Source: Nitrosophilus alvini
GTDB lineage: Bacteria; Campylobacterota; Campylobacteria; Campylobacterales; Nitratiruptoraceae
Length of the DNA: 64,000 nucleotides
Assembly: GCF_015100395.1 (NCBI RefSeq)
Contig: NZ_AP022847.1
Location: forward strand, 310,001 to 374,000
Reading direction: 5' to 3'
Below the pieces are notes generated by a model. That model had not been told where the DNA came from, made no database searches, and saw only the letters and a program-made list of their open reading frames with translations. Each line of letters starts with the position of its first letter. Positions within the stretch are counted from its first letter, which is position 1. The position numbers were made by a program, and so were the translations under genes. Positions 5,869-55,490 of this stretch are shown here, in pieces.

Positions 5869-5967
5869 GGGAGAGCCGTAAAGAAAAAGCAAACTGCTTT
5901 GCTTTTTCAGGCTCGCACGGCGAGGCGAATATGCGGGCGAAGCCTGCATAGCCTACGCCAGTTTACC
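5869..5967 (+). repeat. Hairpin-module repeat, copy A (99 nt)
   Basis: This intergenic module has two hairpins. The first has an inner 11-bp stem with a CTGC loop (inner arms 5883-5893 and 5898-5908) and an outer stem GAGCC (5873-5877) with GGCTC (5910-5914). The second is built on ATGCGGGC and GCCTGCAT around a GAA loop, flanked by GGCG and CGCC arms, and the module ends in CAGTTTACC. It is identical base for base to copy B, 126 bp away. Related modules at 26.1 and 55.3-55.5 kb keep the fold with different stem sequences. Confidence 0.88.
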
Positions 5968-5994
5968 GAAGAAGGCTGAAGGACGAAGGTTGAA
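5968..5994. repeat. GAAGGTT-family heptamers between hairpin modules
   Basis: Degenerate 7-mers (GAAGGCT, GAAGGAC, GAAGGTT) link the two identical hairpin modules. The same 7-mer family occurs inside waaF and near 6.2 and 55.4 kb. Confidence 0.75.
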
Positions 5995-6152
5995 GGGAGA
6001 GCCGTAAAGAAAAAGCAAACTGCTTTGCTTTTTCAGGCTCGCACGGCGAGGCGAATATGCGGGCGAAGCCTGCATAGCCTACGCCAGTTTACCTATAGAA
6101 TGCACGGCGATGGCGATGTGCAGAGCGGAGCGATTGCACCGCCAGACGCCAG
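5995..6152 (+). repeat. Hairpin-module repeat, copy B plus a third hairpin
   Basis: Bases 5995-6093 repeat copy A exactly. They are followed by a second unit with the same flanks (GCACGGCGA start, CGCCAGTTCACCG end) but another interior. Its stems are GGCG (6106-6109) with CGCC (6147-6150), TGGCG (6111-6115) with CGCCA (6140-6144), and GTGCA (6118-6122) with TGCAC (6135-6139). No open reading frame or known RNA is recognised here. The 5750-6228 interval contains only these repeats and the possible rho promoter. Confidence 0.85.
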
Positions 6153-6158
6153 TTCACC

Positions 6159-6236
6159 GAATAAGGACGAAAGAATAAGGAAGAAGGACGAAGGTTGAAG
6201 GTTGAGCAAACTGCTCACCAATCACCAATCACGAAA
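6159..6236. repeat. Mixed heptamer array downstream of the 130-residue membrane protein
   Basis: GAAGGTT-type heptamers (6159-6206) run into a small GAGCA/TGCTC hairpin and then ATCACCA/ATCACGA heptamers (6213-6236). The ATCACGA part reads antisense to the flanking genes. The stop codon of the adjacent reverse-strand gene lies inside the array. Confidence 0.7.
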
Positions 6237-7212: not shown

Positions 7213-7303
7213 GTTAGTGTTAGTGTGGGTGTGGGCGAATACGGATCACCAATCGCCAATCACGAGTTACGAATCACGAATCACGAGTCACCAATTACGA
7301 ATC
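7213..7303 (+). repeat. Composite hexamer-heptamer element before ccoI
   Basis: GTGTTA/GTGTGG hexamers (7213-7236) are followed by a GCGAATAC joint and then ATCACGA-type heptamers (7245-7303). They end just before the AAAAGGA ribosome site of the P-type ATPase. The whole 106-bp spacer consists of this element plus the ribosome site. Confidence 0.85.
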
Positions 7304-7316
7304 AAAAGGAAAATAG

Positions 7317-9737
7317 TTGTCGAAAATCAAATGTGACCATTGCCATCTGGAGTTTGATGAAAAAGTTATGATAGAAGATGATTTAGGCGGCGAAAAAAGA
7401 TATTTTTGCTGCAAAGGGTGCCAGGGGGTATATCATCTTCTCAAAGAGGAGGGACTTGATACTTTCTATGACAAACTCGGGGATAACAAACTAGAACCTG
7501 CTGTTGCGGCTACAGAAAAGGATGATCTGGAAAAGTTTGATCTTGATGGTTTTGAAAAAAAATATGTCAAAAAAAGCAAAGAGGGACTAAATGAAATCAA
7601 TCTTATTATAGAAGGAATTCACTGTGCAGCTTGTGTATGGCTAAATGAAAAAGTTTTGCATCAGACTCCCGGTATCATAGAAGCTTCGATAAACTACTCA
7701 AACAACAAAGCAAAAATTGTCTGGGATCCTGATGAAATAAAACTCTCTGAAATTATAAGAAAAATAAGATCAATCGGTTACAATGCCTATCCTTACGATG
7801 CACAACTGCAAGAAGAGAGAGCCGTTAAAGCAAGACGGGACTATTATGCCAGGATATTAGTTGCAGTTTTTGCCACAATGAACATAATGTGGATTGCTAT
7901 TGCTAAATATGTAGGCTTTTTCACGGGTATGAATCGCGATATTAAAGATATATTGAATGTTGCAGAATTTATACTCGCGACTCCCGCCCTTTTCTATAGC
8001 GGATGGGTATATTTTAGGGGTGCATATTACGGTCTTAAAAACGGTTTTGTTACTATGGATCTTCTTGTAGCGACCGGTGCGACACTTGCATACGTTTACT
8101 CTATCTATGCAATGATAACGAGAACAGGAGAAGTATATTTTGACTCTGTTACCATGATAGTAACTTTCGTGCTGGTTGGCAAATATCTTGAAGTTTTAAG
8201 TAAGAAGAATGCTGTAGATACCATAGATAAGCTCCTGGGAACTGTTCCCACGGAAGTAACTGTGATAAAAGACAATGAAAAAGCTCTTGTAAGTATAGAA
8301 GCCGTTCGCCCGGGGGATTTGATAGAGTTAAAGCCGGGCGAAAAAGTTGCGATAGATGGGACTATAGTTACTGGTTCGGCATCTTTTGATGAAAGCTCGC
8401 TTACAGGAGAGAGCGAACCTGTTTTTAAAAAAGAGGGTGACGAGGTTCTTAGCGGTTCAATATGCCTTGATGGCGTAGTTAGATATGAAGCCAAAAAAGA
8501 TTTCAATACCTCTTTACTTTCAAATATAATAACACTTCTTGAAGACTCTATCACCAAAAAACCTCGTATTGAGAAACTTGTAAACCGGATATCGAGATAT
8601 TTTTCCGTAACGGTTTTGAGTATAGCGGTATTGACTCTTATAGCATGGTATATATATACAGGCTCTTTTGAAAAAGCGTTGATTGTTGCAATTTCAGCCA
8701 TTGTAATAGCATGCCCATGCGCATTGAGTCTGGCCACTCCTATGGCTACACTTGTGGGGATAAATTGGGCGGCAAAACACGGGATTTTATTTAAAGAAGC
8801 CGGTTTTATTGAGACAATGGCTAAAAGTGATATGCTTGTTTTGGATAAAACCGGAACGATTACCGAAGGAAAACCGAAAGTTGTTGACGCCTCATTTTTG
8901 AAAGAGTTTGACCGCTCGTTTCTTTACTCGCTTGTTTTGACTTCAAATCATCCTATAAGCCGGGGAGTTGCGGATTTTATAAAGGATGAAGGAGTAAAAA
9001 CGCTGGAGCTGGAAAATATAGAATCTATAGAAGCAAAAGGAGTAGTAGCGGAATATAAAGGAAAGAGACTAATAGGAGGAAATCCGGAACTACTTAAAGA
9101 AAAGGGTATAAAATTTGAGTATGAAGGGGAAGATTCCGTTTTTATTTTTGCCATAGATGATAAAGTGTGTGCCCTGTTTGAACTTAGAGACACACCAAGA
9201 AGCGGAGCTGCAGAAGCTGTAAAGAAAATAAAAGAGATAGGCATTAGAGTTGTAATGCTTACAGGAGACAATGAAAAAGCTGCAAAAAGAGTTGCAAAAG
9301 AGGTTGGTATAGAGGAGTTTTACGCAAAACTTCTGCCGCAGGAAAAAGCTATGAAGATAGAGGAGTTTCGTAAAGAAGGGCATATCATAGTGATGGCAGG
9401 AGATGGTATAAATGACACAGTGGCTTTGTCTTTGAGTGATATATCCATAGCTATGGGCAGCGGAGCGGATATCGCAATAAGTGTAAGTGATGTTGTCCTT
9501 CTTGACGAAGAGCCCAAGACCCTTTATAATGCTTATGTTATAAGCAGAAGAGTCTATAAATTTGTGAAACAAAATCTTGCTCTCTCTTTGATATATAACT
9601 CAATAGCTTTGCCTTTGGCTGTAGCGGGTTTTGTGAATCCTCTGATAGCAGCTATTTCTATGTCGCTGAGTTCCTTGCTTGTAGTGGGAAATTCGATCAG
9701 GATAAAGAGAGTTAGTGTGAGTGTGAGTGAATACTGA
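7317..9737 (+). CDS. ccoI: Copper-translocating P-type ATPase for cbb3 oxidase assembly
   Basis: This membrane pump is predicted to export Cu(I) for cbb3 cytochrome oxidase maturation. The cytosolic N-terminus has a cysteine-rich metal site (C6, C9, C31, C32, C35) typical of CcoI/FixI, then a heavy-metal domain with CAAC at 103-106. The transmembrane CPC motif is near residue 465 and the phosphorylation motif DKTGT near 507. The start is TTG with AAAAGGA seven bases upstream. The ccoS gene follows, which supports the assignment over a general CopA. The last residues, VSVSVSEY, are encoded by GTGTGA hexamers of the intergenic element, so the C-terminus has been extended or replaced by repeat sequence. 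Confidence 0.92.
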   Translation: MSKIKCDHCHLEFDEKVMIEDDLGGEKRYFCCKGCQGVYHLLKEEGLDTFYDKLGDNKLEPAVAATEKDDLEKFDLDGFEKKYVKKSKEGLNEINLIIEGIHCAACVWLNEKVLHQTPGIIEASINYSNNKAKIVWDPDEIKLSEIIRKIRSIGYNAYPYDAQLQEERAVKARRDYYARILVAVFATMNIMWIAIAKYVGFFTGMNRDIKDILNVAEFILATPALFYSGWVYFRGAYYGLKNGFVTMDLLVATGATLAYVYSIYAMITRTGEVYFDSVTMIVTFVLVGKYLEVLSKKNAVDTIDKLLGTVPTEVTVIKDNEKALVSIEAVRPGDLIELKPGEKVAIDGTIVTGSASFDESSLTGESEPVFKKEGDEVLSGSICLDGVVRYEAKKDFNTSLLSNIITLLEDSITKKPRIEKLVNRISRYFSVTVLSIAVLTLIAWYIYTGSFEKALIVAISAIVIACPCALSLATPMATLVGINWAAKHGILFKEAGFIETMAKSDMLVLDKTGTITEGKPKVVDASFLKEFDRSFLYSLVLTSNHPISRGVADFIKDEGVKTLELENIESIEAKGVVAEYKGKRLIGGNPELLKEKGIKFEYEGEDSVFIFAIDDKVCALFELRDTPRSGAAEAVKKIKEIGIRVVMLTGDNEKAAKRVAKEVGIEEFYAKLLPQEKAMKIEEFRKEGHIIVMAGDGINDTVALSLSDISIAMGSGADIAISVSDVVLLDEEPKTLYNAYVISRRVYKFVKQNLALSLIYNSIALPLAVAGFVNPLIAAISMSLSSLLVVGNSIRIKRVSVSVSEY

Positions 9738-9795
9738 TTGCCAATTACGAATCACGAATCACGAATCACAAATCACGAATAATGAATTACGAATT
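9711..9795 (+). repeat. Composite hexamer-heptamer element between ccoI and ccoS
   Basis: GTGTGA hexamers (9711-9729) overlap the 3' end of ccoI. A GTGAATAC joint and about eight ATTACGA/ATCACGA heptamers (9737-9795) follow, ending before the AAAGGA ribosome site of ccoS. Order and orientation match the element before ccoI. Confidence 0.88.
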
Positions 9796-9807
9796 TAAAG
9801 GAAAATT

Positions 9808-14184: not shown

Positions 14185-15210
14185 CTATCCGGTCAGCTCT
14201 TTTGCCGCTTCTATAACCATTTGTGCGGATATTCCTTTCATACATTCATGATGTTTCAGCGGGCATACCCTTTTCATACAGGGGGCGCATTCTAGGTTCA
14301 GTGAGATTACTTTGCTTTTCGGATTTTTCCACTGGGATGTGGAAGTGTAGTCGGTGGGGCCGAATATTGCCACTGTTGGCACTTTGTAGGCGGCTGCGAT
14401 ATGCATAGGACCGCTGTCGTTTGTGATGAAAAGATCAAGAGCGGCGATACTCGATATAAGCTTTGCAATGTTTGTCTTTCCTGCAAGATTTTTATAGTTT
14501 TTTACTCCCAGTTTTAAAAGTTCATTTTCTATATCTTTTGCTATTTTAACTTCACCCGGCCCACCGAATATCAGTATATTGTACTTATCTGAGAGTGCGG
14601 CTGCTGTTTTTGCAAATCTGTCAGGATACCATCTCTTTGCGCTTCCGTAGGTGGCACCTGGGTTTATTCCAAGCAGAGGTCGAAGGTTGAAGGTTGAAGG
14701 GGGAATTTTGGGAAAATAGAGTTTCAGGTCGCCTGCCGGCAGGTTTGTATTTAAAATCTTGTTGATAAATGTGTTGTATTTTTCTACCTGATGAAGAGAG
14801 GTAGAAGGAAGAAGTTTGAAGGCTGAAGGGTTATATTGATAGCGTTTTTTTGAGCCGGTTAAAAACAGAAGAAGTTTAGAGAAAAAGTGGCTTCTAAAAG
14901 TGACGGCAATATCATGCGTACCTATCTCTTTTGCAAGTTTATAGGCGGCAAAAAGGCGGTTTTTGCTCTTTTTTGTATCGTCCACAAAGACTCTTTTGAC
15001 TTTGGGATAGTTTTTTAAAGCTTCTGTTGATACATAGCTTCCGACCAGGGTTATTTCTCCGGGATTCAAAGTTTTTATGAGGTTTTGAATGGCGGGAGTC
15101 GCCATGATGGTATCACCCAGCCATGTGGGAAGTTCTATAAGCAAGGTTGAAGGTGGAAGGTCGAAGGTGGAAGGTCGAAGGTTGACGGCTGAAGGGTTAG
15201 ATGAGTTCAT
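14185..15210 (-). CDS. waaF: LPS heptosyltransferase II with repeat-encoded insertions
   Basis: This GT9 enzyme adds the second heptose to the lipopolysaccharide inner core. The catalytic core is recognisable from LLIELPTWLGDTIMATPA near residue 24 to TNDSGPMHIAAA and the C-terminal cysteine pair. Three segments do not fit the family: the N-terminal 22 residues (with PSTFDLPPST), PSAFKLLPSTS near 128-138, and PSTFNLRP near 170. All are translated from CCTTCNA heptamer arrays, and all keep the reading frame. Start choice is uncertain: ATG at 15210 overlaps the upstream glycosyltransferase by 14 bp and makes the repeat part of the protein. A TTG near 15140 would remove only the first insertion. 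Confidence 0.88.
   Translation of the reverse strand: MNSSNPSAVNLRPSTFDLPPSTLLIELPTWLGDTIMATPAIQNLIKTLNPGEITLVGSYVSTEALKNYPKVKRVFVDDTKKSKNRLFAAYKLAKEIGTHDIAVTFRSHFFSKLLLFLTGSKKRYQYNPSAFKLLPSTSLHQVEKYNTFINKILNTNLPAGDLKLYFPKIPPSTFNLRPLLGINPGATYGSAKRWYPDRFAKTAAALSDKYNILIFGGPGEVKIAKDIENELLKLGVKNYKNLAGKTNIAKLISSIAALDLFITNDSGPMHIAAAYKVPTVAIFGPTDYTSTSQWKNPKSKVISLNLECAPCMKRVCPLKHHECMKGISAQMVIEAAKELTG
14677..14705 (-). repeat. CCTTCNA heptamers inside waaF (third site)
   Basis: Three to four tandem heptamers, CCTTCAA/CCTTCGA on the coding strand, encode PSTFNLRP just before the conserved LLGINPG motif. The frame is kept. Confidence 0.85.
14796..14830 (-). repeat. CCTTCNA heptamers inside waaF (second site)
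   Basis: About four degenerate heptamers on the coding strand encode NPSAFKLLPSTS before the HQVEKY motif. The frame is kept, although flanking bases had to compensate for a copy number that is not a multiple of three. Confidence 0.8.
15143..15197 (-). repeat. CCTTCNA heptamers at the waaF 5' end
   Basis: Seven to eight tandem heptamers lie between the stop of the upstream glycosyltransferase and the first conserved waaF codons. On the coding strand they read CCTTCAG, then CCTTCGA and CCTTCCA in alternation. Confidence 0.88.
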
Positions 15211-26056: not shown

Positions 26057-26213
26057 AACTGGCGTCTGGCGGTGCAATCGCTTCGCTCTGCACATCGCCA
26101 TCGCCGTGCAATCTATCGGTAAACTGTCGTAGGCTATGCCGGCTTCGCCCGCATATTCGCCTCGCCGTGCGGCGCTAAAATCGTGAAGCAGTTCACGATT
26201 TCTTTACGCGCCT
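26057..26213 (-). repeat. Hairpin-module repeat between two glycosyltransferase genes
   Basis: Read on the reverse strand, three hairpins follow each other as in the 5.9-6.15 kb copies. The CTGC-loop hairpin has the inner arms AAATCGTGAA and TTCACGATTT (26201-26192, 26187-26178) and the outer arms GGCGC and GCGCC (26212-26208, 26175-26171). The stem sequences differ from copies A and B yet remain perfectly paired. The ATGCGGGC and GTGCA units follow. The repeat supplies the last codon and stop of the upstream gene. Confidence 0.88.
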
Positions 26214-26914
26214 CCCTTTTTAATATATTTCCAAAATGTATATTGGCTGTAGAGTTTTGCTATCAGGTAACCGTGCCAGCCGTCAAGAAAACCGAGTTTT
26301 AAAAAAAAGATCTTAAAAAAAGTCCAGGGGGGATTTATGACTGCTTTTATTCTGTTTGGTTTTGCCCCAAGAGATGAGTATCGGTTCTGCTTATCTATAA
26401 ACTCTTCTACGCTATCATATGCAAGATGTAGCATATGGTTTTTTAAAGAGCCAGTTTTGCTCTCGGTTACTACTTTTTCATGAACTTCGTCGGAAGTGAA
26501 TCTCGCTTTTTCTTTGTCGAAAAGTCTTATAGTTTTATCAGGATAGAGTCCGCAGTGTTTTATCGGTTTGCCAAAAAAGTAGTTTAATCTTGGAACTTCG
26601 TAGGCTTCAAACTTCGGATTTTTTAAAATCTCTTTTATCTCTTTTTGCAGATTTTCAGTTATTCTCTCATCGCTGTCAAGCACGAAAACCCATCTGTTTT
26701 TGGCCAAATCCACTGCTTTTTGTTTCTGTTTTCCGAAGCCTAGCCACTTTTGATACTCCACTCTAGCACCGAGCTCTTTTGCAATTTTTGCGGTATTGTC
26801 GCTTGAACCGCTGTCAAGTACCAATACTTCATCAGCAAAAGAGGCTGATTCTACGGCCTCTTTTATATATTTTTCGCTGTTAAAAGTGATAATAACTACA
26901 GATAGCTTTTCCAA
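26204..26914 (-). CDS. Glycosyltransferase family 2 (WaaE/KdtX-like)
   Basis: This 236-residue GT-A enzyme has VVIITFNSEKYIKEAVESA at its start and VFVLDSDERIT as its DxD motif. The pattern fits the WaaE/KdtX family that adds glucose to an LPS core heptose. The start is TTG 26914, directly after the upstream stop, with GGAG six bases before it. The last residues (GGA) and the stop codon overlap the hairpin repeat, so the original C-terminus may have been different. Confidence 0.87.
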   Translation of the reverse strand: MEKLSVVIITFNSEKYIKEAVESASFADEVLVLDSGSSDNTAKIAKELGARVEYQKWLGFGKQKQKAVDLAKNRWVFVLDSDERITENLQKEIKEILKNPKFEAYEVPRLNYFFGKPIKHCGLYPDKTIRLFDKEKARFTSDEVHEKVVTESKTGSLKNHMLHLAYDSVEEFIDKQNRYSSLGAKPNRIKAVINPPWTFFKIFFLKLGFLDGWHGYLIAKLYSQYTFWKYIKKGGA

Positions 26915-28009
26915 TCAGACTCCATAAAACTCTCTATACCATTTGACAAACTGCTCGACTCCGTACTCTATAGGAGTTCCAGGCTTATATCCCAAATCTC
27001 TTTCCAAAGCGCTGGTATCTGCCCATGTGGCAGGTACGTCTCCGGGTTGAATCGGGAGCATATTTTTCTTTGCCTCTTTGCCCAAAGCCTTCTCTATCGC
27101 TTTGATAAAATCCATCAGCTCCACCGGAGCGCCATTGCCTATGTTATAGACTCTGTAAGGTGCTTTGCTGGAAGCCGGATTTGGCTTTTTGCCGCTCCAC
27201 TCGGGATTTGGCTTTGCGGGATTGTCAATAACCCTGACCACACCTTCCACGATATCATCTATATATGTAAAATCTCTTTTCATTTTGCCATAATTAAATA
27301 CATCTATGGGTCTATTTTCTATGATCGCTTTGGTGAACAGAAAAAGTGCCATATCCGGTCTTCCCCATGGGCCATATACGGTAAAAAATCTAAGACCCGT
27401 TGTAGGAATGTTGTATAGATGGCTGTATGTATGTGCCATCAGTTCATTTGACTTTTTGCTTGCAGCATACAAGCTGATGGGATGGTCCACGTTGTCTTCG
27501 ACGCTGAATGGCATCTTCTCGTTTAGTCCGTATACACTGGAACTGCTGGCATAGGCTAGATGTTCTATATCATTGTGTCTGCAGGCTTCGAGTATATTTA
27601 AAAATCCTACGATATTGCTTTGGATGTATGCATCAGGGTTGGTTAGAGAGTATCGTACTCCTGCCTGTGCGGCCAAATTGCATACTCTGTCAAACTTTTC
27701 TTCAATAAACAGTTTATCAATCGCCTCTTTATCTTCCAAATCAATCTTGTAAAATGTGTGGTTCGGATATTTTTTACTTCTGTATTTTTTACCATATTCG
27801 AAATCGTTCTCTTCAAAACCCAACTCTTTCAATCTTCCGTATTTTACTCTGATGTCGTAGTAGTCGTTGATATTGTCTATACCTACTACCTCATCACCTC
27901 TTTCAAGAAGTCTAGTTGCAAGATGAAAGCCTATAAATCCGGCTGTACCGGTTATAAGAATTTTTTTTCGTGATTCGTGATTCGTGATTCGTGAATGGTT
28001 TTTGTCCAT
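26915..28009 (-). CDS. NAD-dependent epimerase, UDP-glucuronate 4-epimerase-like
   Basis: This extended SDR enzyme (364 residues) has the cofactor motif [11 protein letters not shown] and the catalytic YAASKKSNE segment. [10 protein letters not shown] is typical of UDP-glucuronate 4-epimerases (CapI family). With ugd nearby, the pair could make UDP-glucuronate and then UDP-galacturonate. The first 15 residues, containing [10 protein letters not shown], are translated ATCACGA heptamers inserted after the start codon. Without them the protein would begin near KKILITG, as homologues do. ATG follows the preceding stop directly (TAAATG). Confidence 0.88.
27967..27998 (-). repeat. ATCACGA heptamers inside the epimerase 5' end
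   Basis: Four tandem heptamers (CACGAAT on the coding strand) lie between the start codon and the first conserved codon and are read in frame. Confidence 0.88.
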
Positions 28010-28360
28010 TTATTTCGCCTTTATAAAATTTATAAGCCCATAGAGCATTTTTTTGATTCTGACAATATCTTCGATTGTCTCATCTATATTTTCAACAAAA
28101 CAGAGCCTTTTTGCCAGTAATAATTGTGTTTCAAGTTCGGATAATGAACCTAGCGAAATAAATAGAAACTGAATGAATTCTTTATTGCTCTGTCTTGAAG
28201 CGCCTTCTGCGATATTGCTTGGAATTGAGATTGTAGCTCTTTTTATTTGCAAAGTTAATCCGTATGTCTCTTCTTTTGGAAATGTCTGACAAAGTTTGTA
28301 TATCTTTTCCACTAAATCCATAGAGAGATTCCATACATCCAAATCTTTATGTTCTTTCAC
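28010..28360 (-). CDS. Four-helix-bundle protein (S23/IVP family)
   Basis: This 116-residue protein belongs to the four-helix-bundle family first known from intervening sequences in 23S rRNA genes. Features are KEHKDLDVWNLSMDLVEKIY at the start and RATISIPSNIAEGASRQSNKEF centrally. The function is unknown; members form pentamers and occur as stand-alone genes. GTG at 28360 has AAGGG six bases upstream and matches the usual KEHKDLDVW beginning, so the longer frame to 28402 is rejected. ATCACGA arrays lie on both sides, which suggests an inserted cassette between sugar-nucleotide genes. Confidence 0.85.
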   Translation of the reverse strand: MKEHKDLDVWNLSMDLVEKIYKLCQTFPKEETYGLTLQIKRATISIPSNIAEGASRQSNKEFIQFLFISLGSLSELETQLLLAKRLCFVENIDETIEDIVRIKKMLYGLINFIKAK

Positions 28361-28393
28361 TAATACCCTTTTAATCATAACCAACTTCAATTT

Positions 28394-28426
28394 ACCAATC
28401 ACGATTTACGAGTCACGAATTACGAA
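28394..28426 (+). repeat. ATCACGA heptamer array between ugd and the four-helix gene
   Basis: About four degenerate heptamers (ATCACGA, TTTACGA, GTCACGA, ATTACGA) lie on the forward strand, antisense to the flanking genes. They touch the ugd stop codon. Confidence 0.78.
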
Positions 28427-29781
28427 CCAACTCCAATCTGATGATACTCGAAGCCAAGCTCTTCGAGTTTGTCTTTGTTATATTGGTTTCTGCCGTCAAA
28501 AATGATCGGATTTTTGAGTCTTTTTTTTATTTCGTAAAAGTCCGGGCTTCTAAACTCTTTCCATTCGGTTATGAGAAGCATAGCATCGGCTTTGTTCAGT
28601 GTATCGTATTTATTTTCGGTATATTCTATGTTTTTATTATCTTTTAGATAGAAGTTTTTTGCTTCTTCCATCGCTTTGGGGTCGTATGCTTTGATTTTGG
28701 CTCCTCTTTTGGTAAGCTCATTTATTATTGTGATAGAGGGAGCTTCTCTCATATCATCTGTTTCCGGTTTAAAGCTCAGTCCCCAGACGGCGAAAACTTT
28801 ATCGCTTAAATCTTCCCCGAATCTGTTGATAACCTTTTGAGACAGTATAAGTTTTTGTTCTTTGTTGACCTCTTCGACTGCCCTGATTATTTTGGGCTTT
28901 ACACCGTTGTCTAGGGCAATTTTTTCCAAAGCTTTTACGTCTTTCGGAAAACAGCTTCCGCCGTATCCGCAGCCAGGATATATAAAGCTGTAGCCGATTC
29001 TGCTGTCGCTGCCGATCCCCACCCTTACTTTGTTTACATCTGCGCCTACCGCTTCGCATATACGGGCAATTTCGTTCATAAAGGATATTTTTGTTGCAAG
29101 CATTGCATTTGCAGCGTATTTTGTCATTTCGGCACTTTTGATGTCCATACCGATAAATCTCTCATGATTTCTAGTAAAAGGAGCATAGAGTTCTTTTAAA
29201 ACGCCCATTGATTTGTGATTGTCTGCACCTATAACGACCCGGTCCGGTTTCATAAAGTCTGCTATCGCATCGCCCTCTTTTAGAAATTCAGGGTTGCTGA
29301 CTACATCGAACTGAAGAAGATCTTCGTATTCGCCGGGAGTTATCTCTTTGTTTTCAACTCTTTTGTCTAACTCTTTTTTTATCGTTTCTCGCACTTTGTC
29401 GGCGGTTCCGACCGGAACGGTTGATTTGTCTACGACTATAACAGGATGGTTCATATGTCTACCGATATCTTTTGCAACAGCGAGTACATACTGCAGATCT
29501 GCGCTGCCGTCTTCTCCCTGCGGAGTTCCAACTGCAATAAAGACTATATCGCTTTTTTCAAGAGCTTCTTTGATATCGGTAGTGAAATTTAGAGTACCCT
29601 TTTGATAGTTTCTCTCAACCATTTCAGAGAGTCCCGGTTCATAGATGGGGATAATTCCGTTTTTGAGTTTTTCTATCTTATTTTTGTCAATATCTACACA
29701 TATTACACTGTTTCCCATTTCAGCAAAGCACGTTCCTGTGACCAGTCCCACATATCCTGTACCTATGATGCTTAGTTTCAT
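28420..29781 (-). CDS. ugd: UDP-glucose 6-dehydrogenase
   Basis: This enzyme oxidises UDP-glucose to UDP-glucuronate with NAD. The N-terminal motif [10 protein letters not shown] and the catalytic [10 protein letters not shown] (cysteine nucleophile) near residue 265 are clear. The length of 453 residues is normal. AAGGAAGAGA precedes ATG. The stop codon is formed at the edge of a heptamer array. It lies in a reverse run with waaC, the lipid A acyltransferase, the four-helix protein and the epimerase. Confidence 0.95.
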
Positions 29782-46997: not shown

Positions 46998-47010
46998 CTG
47001 CTCCCTTTTT

Positions 47011-47077
47011 TCGTAATTCGTGATTCGTGATTGGTGGTTAGTGACTGGTTTCACTCACACCCACACTCACACTCACT
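47011..47077 (-). repeat. Composite hexamer-heptamer element between der and trpS
   Basis: On the coding strand GTGTGA hexamers (47077-47051) are followed by GTGAAACCAGTCACTAACC and ATCACGA/ATTACGA heptamers (to 47011), then the GGGAG site of trpS. AGTGA and TCACT in the joint can form a small hairpin. The joint is almost the same as in the element before nusB. Confidence 0.88.
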
Positions 47078-51292: not shown

Positions 51293-51360
51293 GTGTTGGT
51301 GTTAGTGTTGGTGTGAATATAACGAGTCACGAATTACGAATCGCAAATTAAGAGTCACGA
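51292..51360 (+). repeat. Composite hexamer-heptamer element before the EamA transporter
   Basis: GTGTTG/GTGTTA hexamers (51292-51316), a GTGAATATAAC joint and GTCACGA/ATTACGA heptamers (51320-51360) fill the spacer up to the AGAGGGGG ribosome site. Confidence 0.85.
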
Positions 51361-51377
51361 AAAAAAGAGGGGGATTT

Positions 51378-53645: not shown

Positions 53646-53743
53646 TGTGTGGGTGTGGGTGTGGTGAAACCGATCACTAACCACCAATCACGATTCACGA
53701 ATTACGAATTACGAATTAGAATCACGAATTAAAATTACGAATA
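53646..53743 (+). repeat. Composite hexamer-heptamer element before nusB
   Basis: GTGTGG hexamers (53646-53664), a GTGAAACCGATCACTAACC joint and about nine ATCACGA/ATTACGA heptamers (53671-53743) fill the ribH-nusB spacer up to AAAAGGA. GTGGT and ACCAC in the joint can pair, with GTGA and TCAC inside. It closely matches the element before trpS. Confidence 0.9.
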
Positions 53744-55274: not shown

Positions 55275-55490
55275 AGGCGCGTAAAGAAATCGTAAACTGC
55301 TACGCAGCTTTGCTGCTTATCGGCTGTCTAACGGTGCAGAGTGGAGCGATTGCACCGACAGACGCCAGTTCACCGAATAAGGATGAAGGTTGAAGGCTGA
55401 AGATTGAGCAAACTGCTTTGCTTTTTCAGGCTCGCACGGCGAGGCGAATATGCTGGCGAAGCCTACGCCGATTTGTCGAAAGAGGGCGAA
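55275..55490 (+). repeat. Hairpin-module repeat between mqnC and the M16 gene
   Basis: This mosaic contains a GGCGC-GTAAAG start like the 26-kb copy and a partly decayed CTGC hairpin. Its GTGCA-type unit has the arms CGGTGCA (55332-55338) and TGCACCG (55351-55357), with TGT/ACA and GGC/GCC outside. GAAGGTT heptamers follow (55378-55405). A second CTGC and ATGC-type unit (55405-55475) reads like copies A and B with a shortened hairpin. The 298-bp mqnC-M16 spacer holds only this and the hexamers at 55525-55548. Confidence 0.85.

Follow-up and report, generated by a model that had tools for sequence, protein, structure and literature searches.

The locus analysed here raises the question of why a hairpin should recur in a bacterial chromosome with quite different stems that still pair. 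It lies at 5869-5914 of the window, by which we mean the whole stretch of 64,000 nucleotides of Nitrosophilus alvini (contig NZ_AP022847.1, positions 310,001 to 374,000, forward strand), and it is present there, in a second copy (copy B) and on the minus strand near 26 kb, as an earlier note on this DNA had claimed. This hairpin, H1, makes up the first half of an element of 80-96 nt in all, in which a second hairpin, H2, directly follows the first and the left end is sharp at GGAG or TGAG. We think it probable that the element is a new non-autonomous mobile repeat, resembling REPs and MITEs, whose plus strand folds and which depends on an enzyme acting in trans.

Copy A occupies 5870-5959 on the plus strand (GGAG...CGCC; left end placed from the X-KGAG junctions). 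Its H1 (5873-5914, from sequence and covariation) has an outer stem GAGCC/GGCTC (5873-5877 and 5910-5914), a bulge GTAAA on the 5' side, an 11-bp inner stem, the loop CTGC at 5894-5897 and a single A on the 3' side, while its H2 (5919-5959, from covariation) is of type a, GGCG-A-GGC-...-GCC-TA-CGCC. Copy B (5996-6085, plus strand), 126 bp downstream, has the same sequence, the identity being complete over a 101-nt repeat, and is followed by an orphan H2 of type b (6106-6150, plus strand). The 26-kb copy (26126-26215, minus strand) joins an H1 with swapped stems, GGCGC/GCGCC outside and (G)AAATCGTGAA/TTCACGATTT(T) inside, to an H2 of type a, with an H2 of type b after it (26061-26105, minus strand); GTAAAG and CTGC are the same as in copies A and B. 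Two degenerate copies lie near 55.3 kb on the plus strand. One (55276-55373) has a 5' part of the 26-kb type, an H1 with broken pairing and a remnant of H2 type b, and the other (55388-55466; model match of 40.7 bits) consists of the 3' part of an A-type H1 and an H2 of type a. The earlier note had described one hairpin only, and H2, its two types and the two degenerate copies had escaped it. These types, a (GGCGAGGC...) and b (GGCGATGGCGATGTGC...), are freely combined with H1 and are interchangeable. The genome, a single contig of 1,807,889 bases, holds seven covariance-model matches.

The family was collected by BLAST in 60 relatives, followed by a covariance model built from 20 diverse H1 copies. 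The general plan of H1 comprises a GTNAA bulge and an AA-CTGC-TT apex, and H2 has a similar lopsided bulge. There are two subtypes, GGAG with GCAC after H1 and TGAG with GRAACC after H1, and the unpaired foot is accordingly GGA (91%) or TGA (95%). With this model H1 turned up in 122 of the 299 Campylobacterales genomes, and in 46 of the 81 genera, dispersed, patchy and multi-copy, with 1 to about 20 copies per genome and, in some loci, copies in tandem with 3-5 nt between them. In GTDB genome contigs, a degenerate pattern gave at least 120 matches; the 80 matches listed are all from Campylobacterota by title, except one in a possibly misbinned MAG that bears the label Caldisericaceae (L257). 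The same pattern had no match in 2.9 million viral contigs, BLAST did not find the element in plasmids and phages, and carriage by any of these was therefore set aside for the collections searched. No Rfam family matched at the gathering threshold or at E<=5, and the open literature searched, which yielded papers on REPs, does not describe the element. The element is an order-wide structured repeat, backed by covariation.

The pairing of both hairpins is kept by covariation. In an alignment of 20 H1 sequences, with 500 shuffles as control, 98.7% of cells are paired against 77.7% in the shuffles, 64 cells against 21.5 are changed on both sides, and the covariation score of 0.572 (0.183 in the shuffles) was reached by 0 of the 500; when the 3' partners were shifted by 1-3 columns, the score fell to 0.035-0.088. 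When H1 and H2 were taken together (26 sequences from many genera), 17 of 28 pairs showed at least one kept double change, with both hairpins represented, the pairs 50-53/92-95 leaning towards structure by construction because the ends of H2 were found by requiring pairing of the closing four bases. The best covariation test is the comparison of orthologous sites. At the 3' end of rimP the element is present in seven putative Sulfurovum species. More than one Watson-Crick type is seen there at 8 of 16 pairs, and the orthologous copies keep 14-16 of the 16 pairs intact; the 3' ends of fabG and groEL behave in the same way. Gene conversion or re-insertion could also have occurred repeatedly at these three sites.

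These results bear out the proposal of the earlier note that the fold is selected, either as single-stranded DNA or as RNA: the covariation is strong, even between orthologues at a single site, and the many copies gathered by the covariance model nearly all keep their pairing, most of their variable pairs having changed on the two sides jointly. The proposal thereby passes the check that the note itself had set for its refutation. The note had rested this proposal on the contrast between the stems of copies A and B and those of the 26-kb copy. It gave the stem sequences correctly but not the extent of the inner stem, which is 11 bp with a G-T foot pair in the 26-kb copy. The change is indeed complete with pairing kept, but as direct evidence it is weaker than was thought, being a swap of family members. 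In another genome (G005), where the flanks of the 26-kb site are about 93-96% identical, an A/B-type H1 stands directly before an H2 of type b, so that the new stems at this site came with a module exchanged as a whole and not by stepwise compensation.

Which strand folds is suggested by the parts that do not pair. The conserved unpaired parts (the GGA/TGA foot, GTNAA, CTGC, the single A, and GCAC or GRAACC) are strand-specific, 61 of 86 distinct copies have a G-T pair at the foot of their inner stem, and outside this foot the same copies have 20 G-T pairs against 11 A-C mismatches. Together, the strand-specific motifs and the G-T pairs favour the plus strand as the folded one.

Several sites that carry the element are empty in relatives, and the element is therefore inserted. 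This is the case for the 26-kb copy, whose site is empty in two genomes (G001 and G007), for a tRNA-Lys site in putative Hydrogenimonadaceae, and for rimP-ribD, which is element-free in many putative Sulfurovum (L146-L156). At the latter junction the empty site reads TTTGAGTGG followed directly by TAATTG (L153), and the filled site reads TTTGAGTGG followed directly by TGAGAACC. No target duplication was seen at the 26-kb and rimP-ribD sites. Nine copies have their left flank repeated on the right, and the repeated part stops exactly at KGAG; a right-hand repeat of at least 13 nt is found in 13 of 77 elements, compared with 5 of 188 control positions. The left flank is only weakly biased, the base at -1 being a purine in 86-93%. 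Among 104 non-redundant copies, 38 lie in sense after the 3' end of a gene, within the distance considered, as against 8-11 for each of the three other arrangements. One subtype, TGAG, often starts on a stop codon: its TGA is the stop of the gene, in exact frame, in 21 of the 104 copies, a count that exceeds the number of independent events because orthologous loci are included (fabG five times).

In putative Hydrogenimonadaceae, the element lies between copies of about 25 bp (21-27 bp) of a tRNA 3' end. The duplicated ends belong to Asp, Pro, Thr-like and Lys sequences, all ending in GAACC on the antisense strand. Loci in which such duplications flank the element, with empty sites in relatives, are L100 (3850-4420), L053, L019, L029, L069 and L076, the duplication being at least 48 bp long in L069. 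The unit gained is the element plus a second tRNA end, with about 50 nt of unshared sequence as well. The empty sites show that these three parts were gained together, and not, as had been considered, that the tRNA copies arose by tandem duplication. Separately, copies in rRNA operon spacers (L065-L067, L071-L073, L103) have a tRNA-Ala-like 3' end next to them, part of which is duplicated so as to flank the element.

How would such an element spread? On the plus strand, the short unpaired tag (GGA or TGA) at the sharp left end is followed by the two hairpins, and a putative enzyme acting in trans would recognise this folded strand while the DNA is single-stranded and then move it. If so, the fold would be maintained by transposition and not by service to the host. 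The element offers a clear instance of selection preserving a fold in DNA that seems to be mobile. Against a mobile repeat stand the copy numbers, far below those of typical REPs, and the fact that the comparison caught no transposition event.

IS200/IS605-derived MITEs (PATE-like) have left-end and right-end hairpins only, and they are expected to insert 3' of a fixed tetranucleotide and to leave the target unduplicated. The element shares with these MITEs (PMC6006769) its two bulged hairpins and its sharp left end, and no short target duplication was seen at protein genes. It differs in the 25-bp duplications at tRNAs, which do not fit IS200/IS605-type insertion, and in that no parent IS with the same ends was found: in 48 loci with a Y1 gene, scanned with the model, no copy lay within about 1.5 kb. 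Y1_Tnp (PF01797) is present in 143 of the 299 genomes, and 68 of these 143 carry the element, so that the two are barely correlated (odds ratio 1.7, p 0.026, without correction for ancestry); the Nitrosophilus alvini genome has no such transposase. Given this weak co-occurrence and lack of adjacency, we rejected the Y1 transposases as partners. Nor was any recurrent transposase-like gene noticed beside the copies, including those of Helicobacter sp. 11S02596-1, when their ORFs were compared with each other.

The element also resembles REPs and BIMEs. In both cases a short tag stands 5' of an imperfect hairpin, the fold is strand-specific and single-stranded, and the copies are extragenic, dispersed, multi-copy and in tandem clusters, although copy number is low here (1-20). 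GTAG REPs often provide the gene upstream of them with its stop codon (TAG) and are reiterated with flanking DNA (PMC3733652); our element likewise often provides the stop codon. However, its tag at the hairpin foot is GGA/TGA and not GTAG (nor GTGG or CGTC), and it consists of two covarying hairpins over 80-96 nt, whereas a REP is a single imperfect hairpin of about 20-40, up to 65 nt. Unlike REPs, which flank an associated Y1 transposase, TnpA-REP (RAYT), it has no RAYT beside any copy scanned, nor is there one in the genome of the window. CGTC-tagged palindromic repeats are reported for Sulfurovum NBC37-1 (PMC3733652). These resemble the element in being transposase-free palindromic repeats with overlapping hosts, and differ from it in their tag and in its two hairpins, a comparison that covers tag and hairpin number.

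It is tempting to go further and to speculate that Campylobacterota have here a small mobile element of a new kind and of their own, whose enzyme would read the two-hairpin single strand and insert it at stop codons and at tRNA 3' ends, in the latter case with a duplication of about 25 bp; we put this forward tentatively, as a possibility that is open to considerable doubt. Either way, the element prompts one to ask what enzyme mobilises palindromic repeats that have no transposase, and what brings them to stop codons and to the ends of tRNA genes.

The main rival is a role in RNA at mRNA 3' ends, H1-H2 acting in transcripts as a structure for stability or termination, or else as a small RNA. 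We regard this as unlikely, but it has several observations on its side: the strong sense-strand bias at gene 3' ends, the sense orientation of the copies in rRNA operon spacers, the excess of G-T pairs over A-C mismatches, and the nesting of the element, in several families, within a larger closed structure that ends with a run of Ts. However, G-T pairs are tolerated in single-stranded DNA as well as in RNA, so that their excess does not decide between the two, and the position at stop codons is also explained by tolerance of insertions at gene ends. Moreover, copies are also found antisense to tRNAs, beside CRISPR-like repeats and between genes with no constant partner, individual copies are absent from related genomes, and Rfam offers no match.

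Another reading is a recombination site, either one at which small units integrate into tRNA 3' ends through a tyrosine recombinase, or a folded site like attC. In putative Hydrogenimonadaceae four tRNA types have the element between two copies of the tRNA 3' end (21-27 bp), and relatives have the site empty, which would suit an attachment site, yet most copies, at stop codons or between genes, lack such a repeat. Integron attC sites have R''/R' cores, one long fold and an integrase nearby; the element has two separate hairpins, and by inspection we saw no attC core (RYYYAAC..GTTRRRY). We consider this reading very improbable.

A palindrome acting as duplex DNA, as a protein-binding dyad or a bidirectional terminator with no single-strand fold, seems very improbable. 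Its A-tract/T-tract stems do look like those of bidirectional terminators, but the conserved unpaired motifs are specific to one strand, one strand only retains the G-T pair at the foot, and the covariation spans bulges.

The HEARO target is (A/G)TGA, which is found at the left end of one subtype. A guide-RNA scaffold (omega RNA/HEARO) of an IscB- or TnpB-type transposon is nevertheless largely refuted already and hardly credible, for although the element is conserved, structured, strand-specific and directly abutted by its left flank, it has no Rfam HEARO match, no IscB-type protein exceeded the cut-off in any of the 299 genomes, and TnpB, absent from the genome of the window, occurs in 50 genomes of which 18 are carriers, with no enrichment (overlap counted by hand), so that both proteins were rejected as partners.

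Some further observations concern the surroundings of the copies. In several families (L012, L016, L038, L044) a larger palindrome surrounds H1-H2, with a closing stem (e.g. AAAAAGTGCG/CGCACTTTTTT), a small third hairpin and long arms; it could be a terminator that the element has entered, or an extended form of the element. Hairpins sharing the AACTGCTT apex also stand with no element around them (L009 1630-1690; L014 1328-1388 and 1629-1689), so the apex is in wider use. Helicobacter sp. 11S02596-1 (L215-L282), an isolate, has about 20 pattern matches among the matches listed, many of them within composite repeats with common flanks, and in other loci (L009, L010, L018, L097, L099) copies in three families lie beside or abut CRISPR-like repeats, found by eye. 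In the window, the intact tandem copies A and B (5870-6085) precede the start codon of rho by about 120-340 bp and are antisense to this gene, whose expression they may possibly affect. Degenerate 7-nt tandem repeats of the AATCACG/ACGAATT type occur at many gene junctions on both strands (7231-7316, 9723-9801, 27967-28015, 28377-28441, 47003-47051, 51319-51369 and 53666-53730), and another degenerate 7-nt repeat, GAAGGTT/GAAGGAC (5968-6024, 6173-6215, 15160-15202 and 55375-55417), directly adjoins several copies of the element.
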